From: Pseudovibrio sp. Ad37
GTDB taxonomy: Bacteria; Pseudomonadota; Alphaproteobacteria; Rhizobiales; Stappiaceae
Reading direction: 5' to 3'
Assembly: GCF_001623075.1 (NCBI RefSeq)
Contig: NZ_LMCF01000137.1
Span: forward strand, 1-58,439
DNA: 58,439 nucleotides
Part shown: positions 28,449 through 37,117 of the stretch, piece after piece
Numbering within the stretch: position 1 is the stretch's first letter
How the letters are laid out: each line of letters begins with the position of its first letter
Program-made: the position numbers and the translations under genes
The notes under the pieces: generated by a model
Told to the model about the DNA's origin: nothing
Databases searched by the model: none
What the model saw: the letters and a program-made list of their open reading frames with translations, nothing else

Positions 28449-29738
28449 AGCGACAAAACAGCGAAACTGACTATTGGAGACAACAGCTGGGACTTTAACG
28501 TCCACTCTGGCTCCATGGGCCCTGATGTTCTGGACATCGGTTCGCTTTATAAGCAAACTGATCACTTCACACTGGACCCTGGTTTCACATCAACTGCCTC
28601 ATGCGAATCCAAGATCACTTACATCGACGGTGACGCAGGCGTTCTGCTTTACCGCGGTTACCCGATTGAACAGCTCGCCGAACACGGCGACTTTTTGGAA
28701 AGCTGCTATCTGCTGCTGTACGGCGAACTGCCAACACGCGCAGAGAAGGACGATTTTGTTCATCGTGTAACCTACCACACCATGATCCATGATCAGATGA
28801 GCTCTTTCTTCAAGGGTTATCGTCGTGACGCTCACCCAATGGCAGTCATGACCGGTACCGTTGGAGCTCTCTCTTCCTTCTATCATGACAGCACCGACAT
28901 CTCCGATCCACACCTGCGCATGGTTGCATCCCTGCGCATGATCGCAAAGATGCCGACCATTGCTGCAATGGCCTACAAATACCACGTTGGTCAGCCATTC
29001 GTTTACCCAAGAAACGATCTGGACTACGCATCCAACTTCCTACACATGTGCTTCGCAGTTCCATGTGAGGAATATAAAGTAAATCCGGTTCTGGCACGCG
29101 CCATGGACCGTATCTTCATCCTGCACGCTGACCACGAGCAGAACGCTTCCACATCCACCGTACGTCTTGCTGGTTCTTCAGGCGCAAACCCATTTGCATG
29201 TATTGCAGCTGGCATTGCATGTCTGTGGGGTCCATCTCATGGCGGTGCGAATGAGGCAGCTCTGAACATGCTTTCCGAAATCGGTTCTGTTGACCGTATT
29301 CCTGAGTATGTGGCACGTGCAAAAGACAAGAATGATCCGTTCCGCCTCATGGGCTTCGGTCACCGCGTCTACAAAAACTACGACCCACGCGCACGCATCA
29401 TGCAGAAAACCTGTCATGAAGTGCTTGCAGAGCTGGGCCACCAGGACGATCCGCTTCTTGAAGTGGCAATGGAACTGGAAAAAGTTGCCCTCACCGATCC
29501 TTACTTCGTTGAGAAGAAGCTCTATCCAAACATTGACTTCTACTCCGGCATCACCCTGCGTGCTCTGGGCTTCCCAACCACCATGTTCACCGTGCTCTTC
29601 GCACTGGCTCGTACAGTAGGTTGGATCGCACAGTGGAAGGAAATGATTGAAGATCCTTCCCAGCGTATCGGTCGTCCACGCCAGCTGTACACCGGCTATT
29701 CCGAGCGTGACTATCAGCCAATCGACCAGCGTCGTTAA
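28446..29738 (+). CDS. gltA: citrate synthase
   Basis: The 430-residue enzyme condenses acetyl-CoA and oxaloacetate at the entry of the TCA cycle. It is the large type II form ([22 protein letters not shown]), with active-site blocks [32 protein letters not shown] and [18 protein letters not shown] at 28446 is used; a TTG at 28437 in the same frame would add three residues. A strong terminator follows. Beyond it the core gene order is interrupted by the nine-gene island. Confidence 0.97.
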
Positions 29739-29979: not shown

Positions 29980-30432
29980 ATGCGTCTTGCCCCCCTCCCT
30001 GTTTTTGCAGCCTTCACGCTCCTCTCTGCCGGTCTGGCAAGCTATTCCTCAGCAAACACCGAAACCGCACAAGCTTCCCGGGACGTTGCCTTCTCAAACC
30101 TGAGCATGCAGGACGGCACATCAGACAATTCCATCTGCGTTGAGCGTTATGGTGACGGGTACACAGTCTCCCCCTCCAAAGAAGCCCCCAAACGCACCTA
30201 CATCAGCGACAAGGGACACACCGTAACGCTGGTGGATAGAAACGAGATTTTAGGACAAGGCATTTTTGCTGAACATGACCGGTTCATGATGACATTCCCC
30301 GGCAATGAAGGTGAAGAGATTGAGGTCACTCAATTCGTGACCGGCCTGATCGGCGGCGACAACTACAGTGGCGTATTCACAGACGGCACATGCACCGGAA
30401 AGGTTTCTGTTGGCCCATTGGAATACAAATAA
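29980..30432 (+). CDS. array protein 1: small exported two-cysteine protein, unknown family
   Basis: This 150-residue protein is first in a tandem set of nine paralogues (29980-35744). ATG 29980 is used because AAAAGGAT lies 8 nt upstream and the export signal MRLAPLPVFAAFTLLSAGLA begins there; the frame opens further up at a TTG at 29932. The mature part follows the family plan: FSNLSMQDGT, first cysteine in SICVERYGDG, SDKGHTVTL, GIFAEHDRF, TGLIGG, and second cysteine in SGVFTDGTCTG near the end. It is intermediate between the two groups, with group-B style at the N-terminal side and group-A features such as AEH. Two cysteines in an exported protein suggest one disulfide. I do not recognise the family, and no enzyme motif is visible. 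Confidence 0.8.
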   Translation: MRLAPLPVFAAFTLLSAGLASYSSANTETAQASRDVAFSNLSMQDGTSDNSICVERYGDGYTVSPSKEAPKRTYISDKGHTVTLVDRNEILGQGIFAEHDRFMMTFPGNEGEEIEVTQFVTGLIGGDNYSGVFTDGTCTGKVSVGPLEYK

Positions 30433-30498
30433 AGACAGCTCATAGCTGCTGCGCTGGCACAAGAAGTTAGGCAAAACAGATTTGAAACGGGAGCACAT

Positions 30499-30978
30499 AT
30501 GCACCTTACTAAACTGCAACAGTCCGGCGTTGTCCTCGTCCTTGGAATGCTCGGATCAGCCAGCAGTCAAATCATCCTCCGCGAGAACAGTGCCAATCCG
30601 TTCACCGACATGAAGCGCGTCTCCCCGTCAAGACAAGTTTCAGTTCATGGCCTGACTGTTCTGACAGATGACGTGGGGATTGAGCTTTGCAAAGAACGTT
30701 ATGGCGACGGCTACATCCTTTATCCCACCCCAAATGGAGGACAGAAACAGTTTGTCTCCGATAAAGGTCACACGCTCACCATCTACGCCCGAAGTGAGCT
30801 GCGCGAAGAAAGCATTTATGCTGAACACTCACAAATGCTCATCACTTTCTCCAATGATCCTGATGTGGAAGTCGAAGTCACCGTATTCATAACCGGCTTC
30901 GTGAACTCCAGACTATTCAGCGGCGTCTTTTCAGATGGCACCTGCGCCGGGCACTTTTCCATCACAGACACCAAGTGA
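30499..30978 (+). CDS. array protein 2 (group A)
   Basis: This 159-residue member has ATG at 30499 and GGGAG 5 nt upstream. Export signal GVVLVLGMLGSASS is followed by the group-A linker NPFTDMKRVSPSRQ. The core has LTVLTDDVGIELCKERYGDG, SDKGHTLTIYARSELR, IYAEHSQMLITF, ITGFVN and SGVFSDGTCAG. The only cysteines are the two family cysteines. It is closely related to copies 3 and 4 (long identical segments such as TVFITGFVNS). The gap from copy 1 is 66 nt, so the two may share a transcript. Function unknown; secretion or periplasmic location is inferred from the signal. Confidence 0.8.
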   Translation: MHLTKLQQSGVVLVLGMLGSASSQIILRENSANPFTDMKRVSPSRQVSVHGLTVLTDDVGIELCKERYGDGYILYPTPNGGQKQFVSDKGHTLTIYARSELREESIYAEHSQMLITFSNDPDVEVEVTVFITGFVNSRLFSGVFSDGTCAGHFSITDTK

Positions 30979-31002
30979 TCACTCAATAAACGTAGTGGAT
31001 TA

Positions 31003-31180
31003 GAAACTGACTAAATCTGGACACCGCACAATACGCATTTTTCATTCTAGAGAACATCAAGTTGGGCGCAGAACAGTTACATTAAGCTAGCAGGACCATT
31101 CTTTGAGGCGCATCAGTCCTGAAAAGCAAGATGTGGCAGCACCTCATAAAGAAGTCATTGTGTGCAACAGCAAGTCGCAA
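31003..31180 (+). repeat. repeated leader block, copy ahead of array gene 3
   Basis: About 178 bp align with 31751-31930 and 33139-33320. Shared landmarks in order are AACTGACTAAA, CATTCT, TTACATTAA, GCAGGAC and the codons of a group-B signal-peptide start. Here the signal start reads as KKSLCATAS, but its ATG has become ATA, so it can no longer start at that point. Array gene 3 starts 62 nt after the block. Confidence 0.75.
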
Positions 31181-31241
31181 CGCGATCAACAGGAGCTCTG
31201 AGAACAAAATCAGACACAACAGATCCGAAGTGAGAGAATAC

Positions 31242-31727
31242 ATGCACTTTCCAAAACTGAAACAGTCTGGAGTAGTCTTCATCCTCAACCTTGCAATGCT
31301 GGGGGTAGCCAGCAGCCAAGTCATCCTCCGCGAGCACAGAGCAAATCCGTTTACCGACATGAAACGCGTGTCCCCATCACGGCACATTCTGGTCGACAAC
31401 CTGACAGTCCTGACAGATGCCGTGGGCATCGAGTTCTGCAAGGAACGTTATCGCAACGGGACCACGGTTTACCCCGACCCAGACGGACGACACGGACAGT
31501 TTATCAGCCAAGAGAACGACAAGCTCACTCTCTACGATCGCAGTGAGCTGCGTCAGGACGGCATTTATACTGAACACTCGCAACTGGTCATCACCTTTAA
31601 GAACGATCCGGATGTAGAAGTCAAGGTCACCGTGTTCATAACAGGCTTCGTGAACTCTAAGATGTTCAGCGGCGTCTTCTCTGATGGCATTTGCACCGGA
31701 CACTTTTCCGTTGTCGAAGCCAAGTGA
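31242..31727 (+). CDS. array protein 3 (group A)
   Basis: This 161-residue member starts at ATG 31242, which aligns with the start of copies 2 and 4; the frame is open back to 31131, but that part is the relic of a group-B leader. Export signal is GVVFILNLAMLGVASS, linker NPFTDMKRVSPSRH. Core: LTVLTDAVGIEFCKERYRNG, YTEHSQLVITF, TVFITGFVNSKMFSGVFSDG and final ICTGHFSV. The usual SDKGH motif has drifted to SQENDK, and RYG to RYR, so this copy is under looser constraint at those sites. Both cysteines are kept. Confidence 0.8.
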   Translation: MHFPKLKQSGVVFILNLAMLGVASSQVILREHRANPFTDMKRVSPSRHILVDNLTVLTDAVGIEFCKERYRNGTTVYPDPDGRHGQFISQENDKLTLYDRSELRQDGIYTEHSQLVITFKNDPDVEVKVTVFITGFVNSKMFSGVFSDGICTGHFSVVEAK

Positions 31728-31750
31728 TCCTGCAAAACGTTGCTTCGAGA

Positions 31751-31930
31751 AATTGACTAAACCCAGACAATCACGCGAAACACATTCTTCATCTTAAAGA
31801 AAATCAAATTGAACCCAGAGCATTTACATTAACGCAGCAGGACTATTCTCTGCGGGTCGTGAGGCCTGAACAGCAACGAGTGGAAGCTCCCCATGAAGAA
31901 GATTTTCTGTGCAGCAGCAAGCCTCAGTCC
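31751..31930 (+). repeat. repeated leader block, copy ahead of array gene 4
   Basis: The block aligns with 31003-31180 and 33139-33320. It keeps an intact ATG at 31893 that opens a 27-codon frame (MKKIFCAAASLSPVV, stop TGA at 31974-31976). That frame matches the signal-peptide start of array protein 5 and then dies. Array gene 4 starts at 31990, 14 nt after that stop. Confidence 0.75.
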
Positions 31931-31976
31931 TGTCGTCGACAGATCCGGGACGAGAGGTCAGGCACAGCAGGTCTGA
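31893..31976 (+). pseudogene. relic of a group-B signal peptide start
   Basis: The 27-codon open frame begins MKKIFCAAASLS, nearly the same as MKKLLCAAASLG of array protein 5, and then runs into unrelated sequence and a TGA. No mature domain follows. It is best read as the stump of a group-B gene whose body was replaced by a group-A gene. If still translated, it could couple to gene 4, which starts 14 nt later. Confidence 0.6.
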
Positions 31977-31989
31977 AATGGGAGTAGAC

Positions 31990-32475
31990 ATGCGCCTTAC
32001 AAAACTGAAACAGTCCGGTGTAGCTCTCATCCTCACCATTGGAATGCTGGGGCAAGCCAACGGTCAGGTTACCCACCGCGACAACCGGGGCAATCCCTTC
32101 ATCGACCTGAAACGCCTTTCTGTATCACGGCAAATCGCCATCCAGAACCTAACAGTCCTGACTGATGCAGTTGGGGTCGAGTTCTGTAAAGAACGCTATG
32201 GCAACGGATACATTGTCTATCCCGATCCAAACGGACGGCGCGGGCAGTTTGTCAGCGACAAAGGGCACAAGTTCTCCCTCTACGCCCGCAGCGAGTTACG
32301 CGGTGACGGCATTTATGCCGAACACTCGCAAGTCCTCATCACGTTCCCCAATGATCCGGATGAAGAAGTTGAGAACACCCAGTTCATAACCGGCTTCGTG
32401 AACTCCAAAATATTCACCGGTGTCTTTTCAGATGGCATCTGCTCCGGAAGGTTTTCTGTCATCGACGCCAAGTGA
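31990..32475 (+). CDS. array protein 4 (group A)
   Basis: This 161-residue member starts at ATG 31990 with GGGAG 5-6 nt upstream. Signal GVALILTIGMLGQANG is followed by linker NPFIDLKRLSVSRQ. Core: LTVLTDAVGVEFCKERYGNG, SDKGHKFSLYARSELR, GIYAEHSQVLITF, TQFITGFVNSKIFTGVFSDG and ICSGRFSV. Two cysteines only. It ends TGA at 32473-32475 directly against the stop of the convergent acetyltransferase gene, giving the palindrome TGATCA. Copies 2 and 3 also end AAGTGATC, so this junction is part of the repeat unit. Confidence 0.8.
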   Translation: MRLTKLKQSGVALILTIGMLGQANGQVTHRDNRGNPFIDLKRLSVSRQIAIQNLTVLTDAVGVEFCKERYGNGYIVYPDPNGRRGQFVSDKGHKFSLYARSELRGDGIYAEHSQVLITFPNDPDEEVENTQFITGFVNSKIFTGVFSDGICSGRFSVIDAK

Positions 32476-32961
32476 TCACTTCGGGACCGGCGCAGTTTCC
32501 GCAGTCAGCTCAAGGCATTTACTGACAGAACCCTCGTTTGTCTTATAGGTGCGAAAGCCAACCGCCTCATAATAACCCAGTCCTTCCGGATTGGAGGCAC
32601 CAATCGTGGCGTCAATTTTCTCAAGCCCGGCTTGTCTGGCAGCATCAAACGTTTCAGCAAACAAGGCACGCCCGACACCGCGACGCCCAGCACTCGGGCG
32701 CACATGGGTGCCAATAATGCCCCAACCCGCCGTCACGCCATAAGTGTTGCCCTCTGATGCCCGTTTCAGGATCTGCAGCCCAAGCAGAGTCCCATCCACA
32801 TCTTCAACCACAGAACAGCGGACTTTATCTGCATGAGCAATGTAGTGAGAGATCACATAGGCCTCATCACTCGGCAAACTGCGCTTTCCCAACGCAGCAA
32901 GCTCCTGCAAAAAAACGCTGATTTCTTCAGCATCGGCCAGAACCGCGTCTCTGACTTTCAT
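32476..32961 (-). CDS. GNAT-family N-acetyltransferase inside the array
   Basis: The 161-residue cytosolic enzyme is predicted to move an acetyl group from acetyl-CoA to an amine; the substrate is unknown. VRDAVLADAEEISVFL is the usual N-terminal start. The acetyl-CoA pyrophosphate loop is seen in HVRPSAGRRGVGRALF, and ASNPEGLGYYEAVGF is the late family block. ATG 32961 is preferred over 32994 because GAGG lies 5 nt upstream. It is the only gene on the minus strand within the array and separates group A from group B. Its stop abuts that of array gene 4. It may have been carried in during array growth or be an older resident. Confidence 0.85.
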   Translation of the reverse strand: MKVRDAVLADAEEISVFLQELAALGKRSLPSDEAYVISHYIAHADKVRCSVVEDVDGTLLGLQILKRASEGNTYGVTAGWGIIGTHVRPSAGRRGVGRALFAETFDAARQAGLEKIDATIGASNPEGLGYYEAVGFRTYKTNEGSVSKCLELTAETAPVPK

Positions 32962-33284
32962 AAAAACCTCAAAATCTGTAGCTGGCCTGCACACCCCTGC
33001 TCATACCAAACACGACAGGCAAAAAAAGAACGATGCATCAATGCAATTAAGAACATAGCCTATCATAAGCCCCGGATTTTCCAGCCCCCGCACTCCGTAA
33101 ATCTTCAGTTTTCACGGATGTTTATGCATAGTGCATTAGAAACTGGCTAAATCCAGCAACATCCCCCAAACCCATTCTTCATCCTAAAGAAAATCGAAGC
33201 TCAGCAAAAACATCTACGTTAACGCAGCAGGACTACTCTTTGCGCGGTTTTAAGCCAGAAAAATAACAAATGCGGTGGCACCCT
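32962..33284. other. 323 nt gap holding the upstream control region of array genes 5-9
   Basis: No gene is seen here. The left part should hold the promoter of the acetyltransferase. The right part, 33139-33320, is the third copy of the leader block and overlaps the true start of array gene 5. Conserved bases TACGTTAACGCAGCAGGACTA at 33218-33238 recur ahead of copies 3 and 4, so they may mark the promoter or an operator. Confidence 0.5.
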
Positions 33285-33320
33285 ATGAAAAAACTTCTCT
33301 GTGCAGCAGCGAGCCTTGGC
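33139..33320 (+). repeat. repeated leader block, functional copy ahead of array gene 5
   Basis: The block aligns with 31003-31180 and 31751-31930. Here it runs without break into the coding sequence MKKLLCAAASLGAIA of array protein 5, so this copy shows the original arrangement: control region plus signal-peptide start. Confidence 0.75.
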
Positions 33321-33740
33321 GCAATTGCTTATATCAGCAGCACGGCTCTGGCAGACGATCACAGTCTGGGCAGTGACAATGAAACCGTCACATTCTCCAA
33401 TCTGACATTAGCAGACGGTACGCCAGACGACGGCATCTGCGCAAAACGCTACGGGACAGGTTACAAAACCGCAGACCATCCCGACACATCTTCACCAGAC
33501 GCTCAGAAGACGACGGCAGAAGGCCACGACATCATCATCTCCTCCACCGGAGGCACCATTGGGGATGGCATCCTGTCCATCGAAAACGAGTACGAGATCA
33601 TCTTCCCCAATGACGAACACAAAGAGACCATTGATGTGAAGATGTTCGCAACCGGCCTGATTGGCAGCGGAACAGCCTCAGGCGTGTTCTCAGATGGCAT
33701 GTGCCGCGGCAAGGTCACCATTCAATCTGCCCAGCAGTAG
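33285..33740 (+). CDS. array protein 5 (group B, head of operon)
   Basis: This 151-residue member starts at ATG 33285 (GGTGG 6 nt upstream; ATG 33270 in frame is less likely). Signal MKKLLCAAASLGAIAYISS ends near ALADDH. Core: VTFSNLTLADGTPDDGICAKRYGTG, DHPDTSS, AEGHDIIIS, GILSIENEYEIIFPND, MFATGLIGSGTASGVFSDGMCRG. It defines group B, marked by DHPDST-like and IENEYEI(I)FP motifs. Genes 5 to 9 have gaps of 12, 7, 47 and 54 nt and probably form one transcript. The function is unknown. Confidence 0.8.
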   Translation: MKKLLCAAASLGAIAYISSTALADDHSLGSDNETVTFSNLTLADGTPDDGICAKRYGTGYKTADHPDTSSPDAQKTTAEGHDIIISSTGGTIGDGILSIENEYEIIFPNDEHKETIDVKMFATGLIGSGTASGVFSDGMCRGKVTIQSAQQ

Positions 33741-33752
33741 GACCCGAGCCCA

Positions 33753-34262
33753 ATGAAAATCGCCCTTTGCACAATGTTGAGCCTATTTATGCTTATACAT
33801 GCAACAATCCCAGCTCACGCTCTTAGCAGTCGAGTTGGTCGTGGTGATAAAATCACAACGTTCTCAGACATCTCCACGACTGACAGCACAATAGATCGCA
33901 GCATTTGTCAAAACCGTTATGGGAAAGTGTTCTTAACAAAAGATCATCCTGCAACAATTGAGGGCGAACAGCTGGTAACCACATCAGAAGGCCAAAAAAT
34001 TGAATTAATTTATCAGGGTGGTCACATTGGCAATGGGATTTACTCCATTGAAAATGAATATAAATTCACTTCCCCCAATAACGAGAATGGGAAATCAGTT
34101 GATCTACAGCTTGCAGCCACAGGTTTCATTGGCGGCGGACGAGCCTCTGGCGTGTTCTCAGACGGCACTTGCACTGGCAACGTCACAATTGAGTTGATCA
34201 CACCAGATAACAGTAAGAAAACGTCACCTAAACACAACACTGATCCCATCACTAAACAATGA
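33753..34262 (+). CDS. array protein 6 (group B, with extended C-terminus)
   Basis: This 169-residue member has a signal MKIALCTMLSLFMLIHATIP ending AHA. The core keeps ITTFSDISTTD, SICQNRYGK, KDHPAT, SEGQKIEL, GIYSIENEYKF, AATGFIGGGRASGVFSDGTCTG. It is the most diverged group-B copy: the FPND motif has become SPNN, and about 20 extra polar, Lys/Pro/Thr-rich residues follow the conserved end. The DNA looks more AT-rich than that of copies 5 and 8. It starts 12 nt after gene 5 with only a weak ribosome site. Confidence 0.8.
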   Translation: MKIALCTMLSLFMLIHATIPAHALSSRVGRGDKITTFSDISTTDSTIDRSICQNRYGKVFLTKDHPATIEGEQLVTTSEGQKIELIYQGGHIGNGIYSIENEYKFTSPNNENGKSVDLQLAATGFIGGGRASGVFSDGTCTGNVTIELITPDNSKKTSPKHNTDPITKQ

Positions 34263-34269
34263 CAACATC

Positions 34270-34737
34270 ATGAGATCATTACTCTGTATCGCAATAAACC
34301 TTGCAGTGCTGGCCATCACCAGCACCTCAGCGCTGGCAATTGCAGAGAGATTGAATCCCCACAATAAGAAAGTCACGTTTACGAACTTATCCATGGCAAA
34401 CGGCAACCCGGATGACGGCACATGCCAGCAGCGTTACGGCGCAAGCATTACAACACAAAGCGTCCCCAGCTCTACCAATGACATACTCAAACGTAAAACG
34501 GATAAGGGACACATCATTCAGGTTATCTCAATCGATGACAGCGTCAATACTGGAATCCTGTCTGTCCGAAACCAATACGAAATCATATTTCCCAATGACA
34601 AAAGCAAGACACCCGTTAGATTGAAACTCTTGGCAACTGGTCTGGTCGGAAGTAAGGAAGCCTCAGGCGTCTTCTCCGACGGCACCTGCCGGGGAAACCT
34701 ACACATTCAGATAATAAAGGAAGATGCGCCTCAATAA
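34270..34737 (+). CDS. array protein 7 (group B)
   Basis: This 155-residue member has signal MRSLLCIAINLAVLAITSTS ending ALA. Core: VTFTNLSMANGNPDDGTCQQRYGAS, KTDKGHIIQV, GILSVRNQYEIIFPND, LLATGLVGSKEASGVFSDGTCRG. The DHPDST motif has drifted to SVPSST. It starts 7 nt after gene 6, suggesting translational coupling. It is closest to copies 8 and 9 in the second half (KTPV, GLVG, CRG). Confidence 0.8.
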   Translation: MRSLLCIAINLAVLAITSTSALAIAERLNPHNKKVTFTNLSMANGNPDDGTCQQRYGASITTQSVPSSTNDILKRKTDKGHIIQVISIDDSVNTGILSVRNQYEIIFPNDKSKTPVRLKLLATGLVGSKEASGVFSDGTCRGNLHIQIIKEDAPQ

Positions 34738-34784
34738 TATTAAGCACTGTGCTTTATTACCCAACCGCATGGACGGATAAAACA

Positions 34785-35240
34785 ATGAAAACATTGCTCC
34801 TGACCATCTTCAGTGTTCTCGCGCTGACCATCACCAGCACAGCCGCATTGGCTGTCGCACAAAGGTTGGGTCCCGGCGACAAGACAATCACCTTCTCCAA
34901 TCTTTCCATGACAGATGGCAGCCCGGATGATGGAACCTGCGAAAAGCGTTACGGCGAAGGTTTTACGACAAAAAACCACCCCGACTCCACCAATGACACT
35001 CTCAAACGCAGCACGGACAAAGGCCACGACATTCTGGTCATCGCTATAGGTGGCAGCGTCAGCGGGGGCATCTTCTCAATCGAAAACGAGTACGAGATCA
35101 TTTTCCCGGGAGATGAAAGCAAAACACCTGTTGATGTGGAACTCGCCGCAACAGGTCTGGTCGGCACTCAGGAAGCGTCCGGCGTCTTCTCCGATGGCAC
35201 CTGCCGCGGAACCCTGCACATCAAGGTATTGGAACCATAA
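34785..35240 (+). CDS. array protein 8 (group B)
   Basis: This 151-residue member starts at ATG 34785 with GGACGGA upstream; the frame is open to 34749 but the signal MKTLLLTIFSVLALTITS starts at the chosen ATG. Core: ITFSNLSMTDGSPDDGTCEKRYGEG, NHPDSTNDTLKRSTDKGHDI, GGIFSIENEYEIIFPGD, ELAATGLVGTQEASGVFSDGTCRG. It is a close match to the group-B consensus. Mature cysteines are the two family positions only. Confidence 0.8.
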   Translation: MKTLLLTIFSVLALTITSTAALAVAQRLGPGDKTITFSNLSMTDGSPDDGTCEKRYGEGFTTKNHPDSTNDTLKRSTDKGHDILVIAIGGSVSGGIFSIENEYEIIFPGDESKTPVDVELAATGLVGTQEASGVFSDGTCRGTLHIKVLEP

Positions 35241-35294
35241 GTGTAATGATACGGGCCATCTCAACTCACCAATAAAGACGTAATGGAGTGAACG

Positions 35295-35744
35295 TTGAAA
35301 ATACTCTTCCTGACCACTTTCAGCGCACTGGCGTTGATCATCGCAAGCACCTCTGCACAAGCAATAATCGAGAAGCTGCATTTCAACGACAACATAATCA
35401 CCTTCTCTAATATCTCTATGATCAATGGAAGTGCGCCAGACGACATCTGTTTGAAACGATACGGTGAGGAGTTAGCAACAAGAGATCACCCCGACTCCAC
35501 AAAGTTTTCCATCAAACGTATGACCGACAAAGGCCATGACATCACAGTAGCTTCACGAAGCATCAATGTGACCGAAGGCATCTTTTCCATCGAAAGCCGA
35601 TATGAAATTCTCTTTCCAGATGATGACAGCCAAACACCCGTTCACTTAACCATAACGACGACCGGACTGATCGGAGACAAAGAAGCGACTGGACTGTTCT
35701 CAGACGGCACCTGCAGAGGGGCCATCAAGGTCAAAAATAAATAA
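35295..35744 (+). CDS. array protein 9 (group B, last copy)
   Basis: This 149-residue member starts at TTG 35295, with GGAG 6-7 nt upstream and the signal MKILFLTTFSALALIIASTS following at once; no ATG is near. Core: ITFSNISMINGSAPDDICLKRYGEE, DHPDSTKFSIKRMTDKGHDI, GIFSIESRYEILFPDD, TTGLIGDKEATGLFSDGTCRG. It ends 176 nt before the convergent lpxB stop. No clear terminator follows; that gap holds nothing else I can identify. Confidence 0.78.
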   Translation: MKILFLTTFSALALIIASTSAQAIIEKLHFNDNIITFSNISMINGSAPDDICLKRYGEELATRDHPDSTKFSIKRMTDKGHDITVASRSINVTEGIFSIESRYEILFPDDDSQTPVHLTITTTGLIGDKEATGLFSDGTCRGAIKVKNK

Positions 35745-35920: not shown

Positions 35921-37117
35921 TTAAACTGAGTACTCTGCCGTCTCAAGGATGATCCTCGCAGCTTTTCCGGCCTGACTTTCGCCCTCAGGTAAACACATCT
36001 TTTCATCGATACGAGAGAACGCATCCAACTGCGCCCGGCGCTCTGGACTGTCGCAAAGCAGCGCGAGCACAGCCTGGCTGAGCGCCTCAGGATGCGCTTC
36101 GTCTTCGATATATTCTTTGATGCTGTGATCCCCAAGCACCAGATTAGGCAGCACAATGGTGTCCACCGCAACAATCTTGATGAACCGGTTGATCTGCTTC
36201 AAACGGCGGAAGAACCAATCCAGCTTGTAAGCAATGACCATAGGCACGCCAGCAATCGCAAGTTCCAAGGAGACAGTACCACTGGCCGCCAGCGCTGCAT
36301 TCGCCTGTCGCAGAGCCGCAAACTTTTCCGCTTCACCCGTCACAATACGCGGCTGTACCTTCCAGGAAGCCACACCATCGCGAATGCGCTGCTCCTGATG
36401 AGGCACTGCAGGAATGATCACATCCACATCCGGATCTTGCGCGCAAATCAACGCGACCGCATCGCCAAACGGCTCCAACAACCGCGAAACCTCGCTCGTC
36501 CGGGAGCCCGGAAGCACCACCAATTGCTTTCTGCCTTCACCGAGTTCTGCGCGCTCCCCTGGAGCAGGCCGCAAATCTGCAAGCCGCTCAATCAACGGAT
36601 GCCCCACATAATCACAGGAGGGACCGCCAAGGCGTTTGTGAGCCTCAGGCTCAAACGGCAACAAGGCGAGCAATTGATCCACATAAGCGGCCATCTTCTT
36701 CGCCCGCCCCGGACGCCACGCCCATACAGATGGGCTCACATAGTCCACCACCCGTATATGAGGCGCTTTCTTGCGCACGCGCTTTGCCACGTTGTGAGTG
36801 AAATCAGGAGAGTCGATGATCAACAGTAAATCGGGTTGCTCGGCAATAACCGCATCAACAGTTTGATGTACACGGCGAATAATCGTCGGCAAACGTTCCA
36901 ACACCGCTGTAATGCCCATCACGGCAATATCATGCAGTGGAAAGATCGACTGTACGCCTTGTGCCGCCATACGCTCACCGCCCAGACCACAGACCTGAAG
37001 ACGATCACCAATCGATGCGCGCAGGGCTTTTATAACCTCTGCACCGAGCTGGTCACCAGACTCTTCGCCAACAACAAAGAAAACCTTGAAGGGTTTGACA
37101 GCGTCCAATTCGCTCAT
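35921..37117 (-). CDS. lpxB: lipid-A-disaccharide synthase
   Basis: This 398-residue glycosyltransferase joins UDP-2,3-diacylglucosamine and lipid X to make the lipid A disaccharide at the inner membrane. Seen are VFFVVGEESGDQLGAEVI, GLGGERMAAQGVQSIF, IDSPDFTHNVAKRV, DYVSPSVWAWRPGRAKKM, VGHPLIE and the GTVSLELAIAGVPMVIAYK block. Length fits. It is the last gene of lpxD-fabZ-lpxA-lpxI-lpxB and starts 3 nt after lpxI. Confidence 0.97.
   Translation of the reverse strand: MSELDAVKPFKVFFVVGEESGDQLGAEVIKALRASIGDRLQVCGLGGERMAAQGVQSIFPLHDIAVMGITAVLERLPTIIRRVHQTVDAVIAEQPDLLLIIDSPDFTHNVAKRVRKKAPHIRVVDYVSPSVWAWRPGRAKKMAAYVDQLLALLPFEPEAHKRLGGPSCDYVGHPLIERLADLRPAPGERAELGEGRKQLVVLPGSRTSEVSRLLEPFGDAVALICAQDPDVDVIIPAVPHQEQRIRDGVASWKVQPRIVTGEAEKFAALRQANAALAASGTVSLELAIAGVPMVIAYKLDWFFRRLKQINRFIKIVAVDTIVLPNLVLGDHSIKEYIEDEAHPEALSQAVLALLCDSPERRAQLDAFSRIDEKMCLPEGESQAGKAARIILETAEYSV

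Follow-up and report, generated by a model that had tools for sequence, protein, structure and literature searches.

A tandem array of nine small two-cysteine proteins with predicted export signals occupies the gltA-lpxB interval in Pseudovibrio

Results

Nine paralogous genes lie between gltA and lpxB

The window analysed here is a stretch of 58,439 nucleotides (nt) from Pseudovibrio sp. Ad37 (contig NZ_LMCF01000137.1), and the element under study is a tandem array of nine paralogous open reading frames (ORFs), all on the plus strand at positions 29980-35744, which encode small two-cysteine proteins with predicted export signals. All nine ORFs were present at the starts that an initial annotation, made from the sequence alone, had given, and their products are 150, 159, 161, 161, 151, 169, 155, 151 and 149 amino acids (aa) long for copies 1-9, in line with the 149-169 aa range claimed. 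That annotation had placed the genes in a row; nine plus-strand paralogues do follow one another, but a minus-strand GNAT acetyltransferase gene interrupts them between copies 4 and 5. Its listing is also corrected for copy 9, which has a TTG start. The features of the locus are given below; slots f1-f9 denote places in the array, and counterparts are those in the nine other arrays found.

28449..29738, plus strand: left flank, gltA (citrate synthase); adjoins lpxB in 7 of 9 examined family-free loci
29980..30432, plus strand: family copy 1, slot f1, 150 aa; counterpart in the same slot of 9 of 9 other arrays
30499..30978, plus strand: family copy 2, accessory duplicate of slot f4, 159 aa; counterpart only in genome G015
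31002..31179, plus strand: duplication scar, a copy of the f5 upstream region with the first f5 codons (repeats D6/D7, three-copy profile)
31242..31727, plus strand: family copy 3, accessory duplicate of slot f4, 161 aa; counterpart only in G002
31748..31926, plus strand: second duplication scar, f5 start region (repeats, three-copy profile)
31990..32475, plus strand: family copy 4, slot f4, 161 aa; counterpart in 8 of 9 other arrays, none in G008
32476..32994 (about), minus strand: GNAT acetyltransferase gene inside the array (PF00583, E = 3e-8; synteny)
33138..33319, plus strand: original f5 upstream region and f5 start (repeats, three-copy profile)
33285..33740, plus strand: family copy 5, slot f5, 151 aa; in 10 of 10 arrays
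33753..34262, plus strand: family copy 6, accessory slot f6, 169 aa, GC 0.43; counterparts in G005, G008 and G009
34270..34737, plus strand: family copy 7, accessory, near f8, 155 aa; possible counterpart in G015, which the tree does not resolve
34785..35240, plus strand: family copy 8, slot f8, 151 aa; counterpart in 7 of 9 other arrays, none in G006 and G008
35295..35744, plus strand: family copy 9, accessory slot f9, 149 aa, TTG start; counterparts in G009 and G015
35921..37117, minus strand: right flank, lpxB (synteny)

From their sequences, we take the flanking genes to be gltA and lpxB. Whether the nine frames are translated had been left as a question by the annotation; codon-level selection, seen in the ratio of nonsynonymous to synonymous substitution (dN/dS) and in codon windows, is strong evidence that they are. 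Over the whole window Rfam gave no match, and shuffled sequence contained more promoter and terminator patterns than the real one.

The copies form a family unmatched in the libraries searched

The nine copies could be aligned along their whole length, with 13 invariant columns, including both cysteines, R-Y, T-G and G-x-F-x-D-G-x-C-x-G. With copy 8 as query, the other eight were retrieved from the same genome (E 3e-59 to 3e-6), and this search, together with a nine-row profile built from the array copies themselves, also found a tenth, solitary copy on another contig (G000:C223:86736-87170). The paralogy is therefore not a matter of chance. Cysteines were counted in 61 rows from the array and solitary loci of 11 genomes, one low-scoring fragment being excluded. 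The mature part holds two cysteines in 60 of 60 rows, and in 58 of them these lie in the CxxRY and D[GSE]xCxG motifs, as expected from the claim of two cysteines at fixed places; the two exceptions, in G004 and G015, resemble decaying copies. The signal peptides and the lack of a lipobox noted earlier were likewise recovered: a lenient home-made rule (n-region charge, hydrophobic core and cleavage site) assigned Sec-like signal peptides to 9/9 window copies, and a regular-expression test found no lipobox in any of them. A crude Chou-Fasman average gave the window copies a beta-rich propensity, which, like the export-signal rule, is weak evidence.

Profile searches left the family without a match past the cut-offs. 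Pfam-A gave nothing above the gathering cut-off (best E 0.028) for the nine proteins queried at E ≤ 10, 40 mature members at E ≤ 1 and the G010 and G774 members at E ≤ 0.1; NCBIfam gave nothing above the curated cut-off (best E 0.03), PHROGs no significant profile match (best E 0.19) and PADLOC no family match. Against PDB sequences there was no significant sequence-profile match (best E 0.74), and two further searches gave none at E ≤ 10. The description of the family as unrecognised thus holds for these libraries, none of which places all nine proteins in a well-described family. A tblastn search of plasmids and phages with one copy (P0008) returned nothing at E ≤ 1, and none of the 11 viral-contig stretches that fitted a pattern was confirmed. 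Passages of PMC5959193 and PMC4811931 (12 of 13 places for the latter) do not mention the array under the words searched.

Among the genomes sampled, only Pseudovibrio and one further genome carry the family

Counted across related genomes, the family was matched (E ≤ 0.01) in 12 of 87 genomes of the same taxonomic family, and the arrays hold from three copies (one a fragment, in G008) to nine. Carriers comprise 11 of the 16 genomes of the genus, our own included, and one of the 71 from other genera (G774); G010 has one divergent copy, and no solitary copy was seen in G003 and G004. Nothing credible was added by samples of genomes from the order (397), the phylum (398) and the class (385), and among the class genomes a 15-row profile that included the G010 and G774 members matched only our own genome. 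Two matches at E of about 0.04 were taken as chance: one in an order genome, antisense to a frame that is presumably PurM-like, and one in a phylum genome, with an internal stop. A single peptide pattern scanned in named records gave nine loci, 9/9 titled Pseudovibrio, and P. japonicus KCTC 12861 and P. denitrificans JCM 12308 both carry the array.

The five congeners without the family have genomes of 3.7-4.4 Mb. According to passages of PMC12080928, a recent revision separates small-genome species from Pseudovibrio and leaves a core group of 4.96-6.18 Mb. Given this difference in size, the family may be a marker of Pseudovibrio in the strict sense.

The array has a fixed place in the genome

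In 10 genomes the array sits between gene pairs and triplets that we take to be gltX-gltA and lpxB-lpxI-lpxA, and the single copies of G010 and G774 occupy the same gltA-lpxB interval. The comparison set consisted of nine fetched family-free gltA loci, five from congeners and four from other genera. The gltA and lpxB matches lie about 130-690 nt apart in seven of these nine; about 4.5 kb with other genes separates them in G013, and no lpxB was seen within the stretch taken from G001. The interval may serve as a general insertion site.

Some of the genes in the G013 interval (L106:4328-8551) look glycosyltransferase-like by eye. In G010, gltA is separated from the single family gene by two adjoining transposase-like frames (L058:9017-10110), by eye presumably IS630-like, and a second, partial gltA-like match is found on another contig (G010:C3:6490-7317; 84% identity, query residues 68-344).

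Tandem duplication left scars between copies

The order of several slots is shared with other species. Over the 10 arrays, f1 and f5 are present in 10 each, f4 and the GNAT gene in 9, f8 in 8, f6 in 4 and f9 in 3, and f2 and f3 each occur in one genome beyond our own. The f1 counterpart is broken in G008 and has an altered end in G004, and broken or odd copies are found in G002, G008, G004 and G015. A tree is consistent with slots of old origin, although it leaves 16 of its 56 inner branches open and brings some long branches together.

About 180 nt that span the upstream region of f5 and its first codons recur in the gap between copies 2 and 3 and again in that between copies 3 and 4, as part of a repeat unit of about 748 nt. 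These scars are the footprint of tandem duplication of a unit made of f4 plus the start of f5, and the duplicates are without a GNAT gene. A profile built from the three window copies found extra scars in G002 and G015, the genomes that carry f3 or f2; such scars are absent from the other array genomes, the match in G003 being partial. We dropped a purely regulatory reading of the repeats that separate copies 2, 3 and 4, since each of them duplicates the start region of f5. Since 20 of the 36 window paralogue pairs are saturated at synonymous sites (the remaining 16 give dN/dS 0.17-0.69) and slots recur in order elsewhere, the nine copies are not a recent burst. The local amplification proposed earlier is supported.

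The GNAT gene is kept between copies 4 and 5 in nine of ten arrays and is absent in G004. Its best NCBIfam similarity, to ArsN1 family A, lies far under the cut-off (28.4 vs 170 bits).

Orthologous copies are under purifying selection

We estimated dN/dS between orthologues by the Nei-Gojobori method, using at most the first five members per slot; many pairs are near synonymous saturation, so the values are rough. Estimates were obtained for 58 of 62 pairs and all fell within 0.03-0.24: 0.03-0.15 for slots f1, f4, f5 and f8 (39 of 40 pairs), 0.15 for f3 (one pair), 0.15-0.18 for f6 (5 of 6 pairs), 0.18 for f9 (1 of 3 pairs), 0.21 for f7 (one pair, of unsure orthology), 0.24 for f2 (one pair) and 0.06-0.24 for the solitary copy (10 pairs). 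The proportion of nonsynonymous differences exceeded that of synonymous ones (pN > pS) in 0 of 79 windows of 20 codons, drawn from five orthologue and two close-paralogue sets with the f4 orthologues excluded. These results indicate that the orthologues are under purifying selection. With low dN/dS and no such window, the diversifying selection suggested in the initial annotation is unsupported.

A single-copy form has putative partner genes

In G010 and G774, genes for a GRDP-like protein and a pyridoxal phosphate (PLP) aminotransferase-like protein lie downstream of the single family gene and in its orientation. The latter gene matches PF00155 and, among the 87 genomes, was matched at E ≤ 1e-30 only in these two. 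The GRDP-like protein of G774 approaches PF07173 (E = 0.004, 18.4 bits vs the gathering score of 22.7), and that of G010 has no PF07173 match at E ≤ 0.1. The array proteins have no PF07173 match either; the GRDP-like family is a neighbour of our family, not a relative, and a short GRDP-like gene adjoins a family gene in four genomes.

A GRDP profile made from the two finds matched 36 places in 32 of the 87 genomes. Besides the two queries, three places were strong (E < 1e-29). Those in G006 and G014 adjoin the solitary family gene; the third, a further place in G010 (L137), stands apart from any family gene. Family and GRDP-like genes are separated by 78-437 nt, and the motifs WHTHILFT, DC and LHH are invariant in five GRDP-like sequences. 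At L137 and at seven of the 31 weak places there was no family or PLP match at E ≤ 1. A five-row GRDP profile gave 14 weak places in the 397 order genomes (E 3e-12 to 9e-8), with no family member within 1.5 kb on either side (best E 0.22) and, by eye and in plus-strand frames only, no clear secreted two-cysteine neighbour. Four GRDP and PLP proteins had no match in PADLOC.

Seven solitary loci are complete; the contig of G008 ends within the neighbourhood of an eighth. In the seven, the next gene is GRDP-like in two (G006 and G014) and encodes an EEP-type phosphatase in five, never both. The EEP-type phosphatase of our own genome matches PF03372. At the place that the GRDP-like gene takes in two other species, the solitary family gene is followed by one for an EEP-type phosphatase (L045:9409-10269, PF03372) whose N-terminus is hydrophobic. 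We set aside a joint chance value for the partner link: the genomes are not independent of one another, being related, and adjacency had been the ground for choosing the query genes.

Discussion

We tentatively favour the reading that this orphan family of small, Sec-exported proteins forms, as judged from sequence, a panel of soluble extracytoplasmic binding proteins, and not enzymes or immunity proteins. Its evolutionary part, which draws on homology, restricted distribution in the sampled genomes, a fixed insertion site, scars, purifying selection and a single-copy form with partners, is much firmer than its mechanism. The family would have been amplified in Pseudovibrio by tandem duplication within the gltA-lpxB interval and its paralogues retained as a separately conserved set, the single-copy form with partner genes being the likely ancestral state. 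Each protein may be a soluble beta-rich domain, clamped by a disulfide, outside the cytoplasm. The CxxRYG and GxFSDGTCRG segments, joined by that disulfide, would form one common site, and the variable N-terminus and middle loop would set the ligand or partner of the individual slot. In its ancestral form the protein probably either worked jointly with the GRDP-like protein or underwent processing by it, and most Pseudovibrio would have lost this partner since then.

Several observations weigh against this explanation. Neither GRDP (E ≤ 1e-3) nor PLP (E ≤ 1e-30) is matched in our own genome, and GRDP or PLP partners are missing from the surroundings of every array copy, as judged by reading our own array and from the named genes alone in the others. 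Independent support for the partner comes from two of the three further strong places; as the queries were picked for adjacency and G006 and G014 represent one orthologous locus, this amounts to about one to two events. The disulfide and the binding role, for their part, are deduced from the conservation of two cysteines and the lack of a recognised enzyme motif.

A somewhat unlikely alternative is that the proteins are secreted factors facing a host or neighbours, such as adhesins, inhibitors or effectors, which a bacterium that frequently lives with animals would have amplified for host interaction. Export signals and the confinement of the family to Pseudovibrio and one other genome among the 87 would suit such a role, as would the sources of Pseudovibrio isolates, which passages of PMC12080928 give as seawater, sponges, sea squirts and corals. 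However, the array is also carried by P. japonicus KCTC 12861, which came from seawater, and P. denitrificans JCM 12308, described as free-living (passages of PMC12080928 and PMC5959193), and selection on orthologues is purifying, not diversifying.

It is unlikely that the exported protein is instead a substrate of a maturation system, modified or readied by the GRDP-like protein and the PLP enzyme before or during export, with the EEP-type phosphatase later taking the GRDP place at the solitary locus. The three genes stand together in G010 and G774, a GRDP-like gene adjoins the solitary gene in G006 and G014, the GRDP-like and EEP genes replace each other in 7/7 complete solitary loci, and the GRDP motifs are invariant in all five sequences. 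Eight of ten array genomes, however, have no GRDP match at E ≤ 1e-3, the fifth strong place (L137) lacks a family neighbour, and any catalytic role of GRDP is putative here. We regard as distinctly unlikely a fuller scheme in which a cytosolic GRDP-like protein, with the PLP enzyme in its fullest form, would mature or load the small disulfide protein, whose gene was later freed and radiated to at most ten specialised extracytoplasmic proteins.

An immunity or resistance set against toxins secreted by rivals, akin to tandem immunity arrays, had been among the roles suggested for the locus and appears improbable. Tandem paralogues with accessory and decaying copies do recall the strings of immunity genes described in PMC9484751, but no toxin gene was recognised beside the array or solitary gene (by eye, with no toxin library searched), PADLOC gave no match, and the main slots are conserved across species at low dN/dS rather than polymorphic. 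That a signal-peptide protein was amplified selfishly or neutrally, its copy number having no selected role, is very unlikely: copy number varies and some copies are broken, but f1, f4, f5 and f8 recur across species with dN/dS ≤ 0.15 in the 39 pairs estimated.

Lineage-restricted tandem families of small exported proteins typically combine a signal peptide, few cysteines, local duplication, and birth and death of copies, and the array shares all of these. It differs from such families in general in being confined to one genus plus one genome, and in its purifying selection, its gltA-lpxB site and its single-copy partners. The array also resembles the esaG strings of staphylococci, as described in PMC9484751, in being a row of non-identical paralogues of varying copy number; unlike them it has export signals, conserved main slots and no recognised toxin partner, a distinction drawn by description only.

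New here are the fixed place of the array between gltA and lpxB, the single-copy form with its putative partner genes, and a second locus where either a GRDP-like or an EEP-type phosphatase gene comes after the family gene. The family is unmatched in the libraries searched and marks 11 of the 16 genomes of the genus. Its readable history, with a single-copy form and its partners, a fixed site, scars and slots, makes functional division among tandem paralogues directly testable. The GRDP-like partner would, in addition, give a bacterial handle on the GRDP family, which has been described in plants (PMC4299439).

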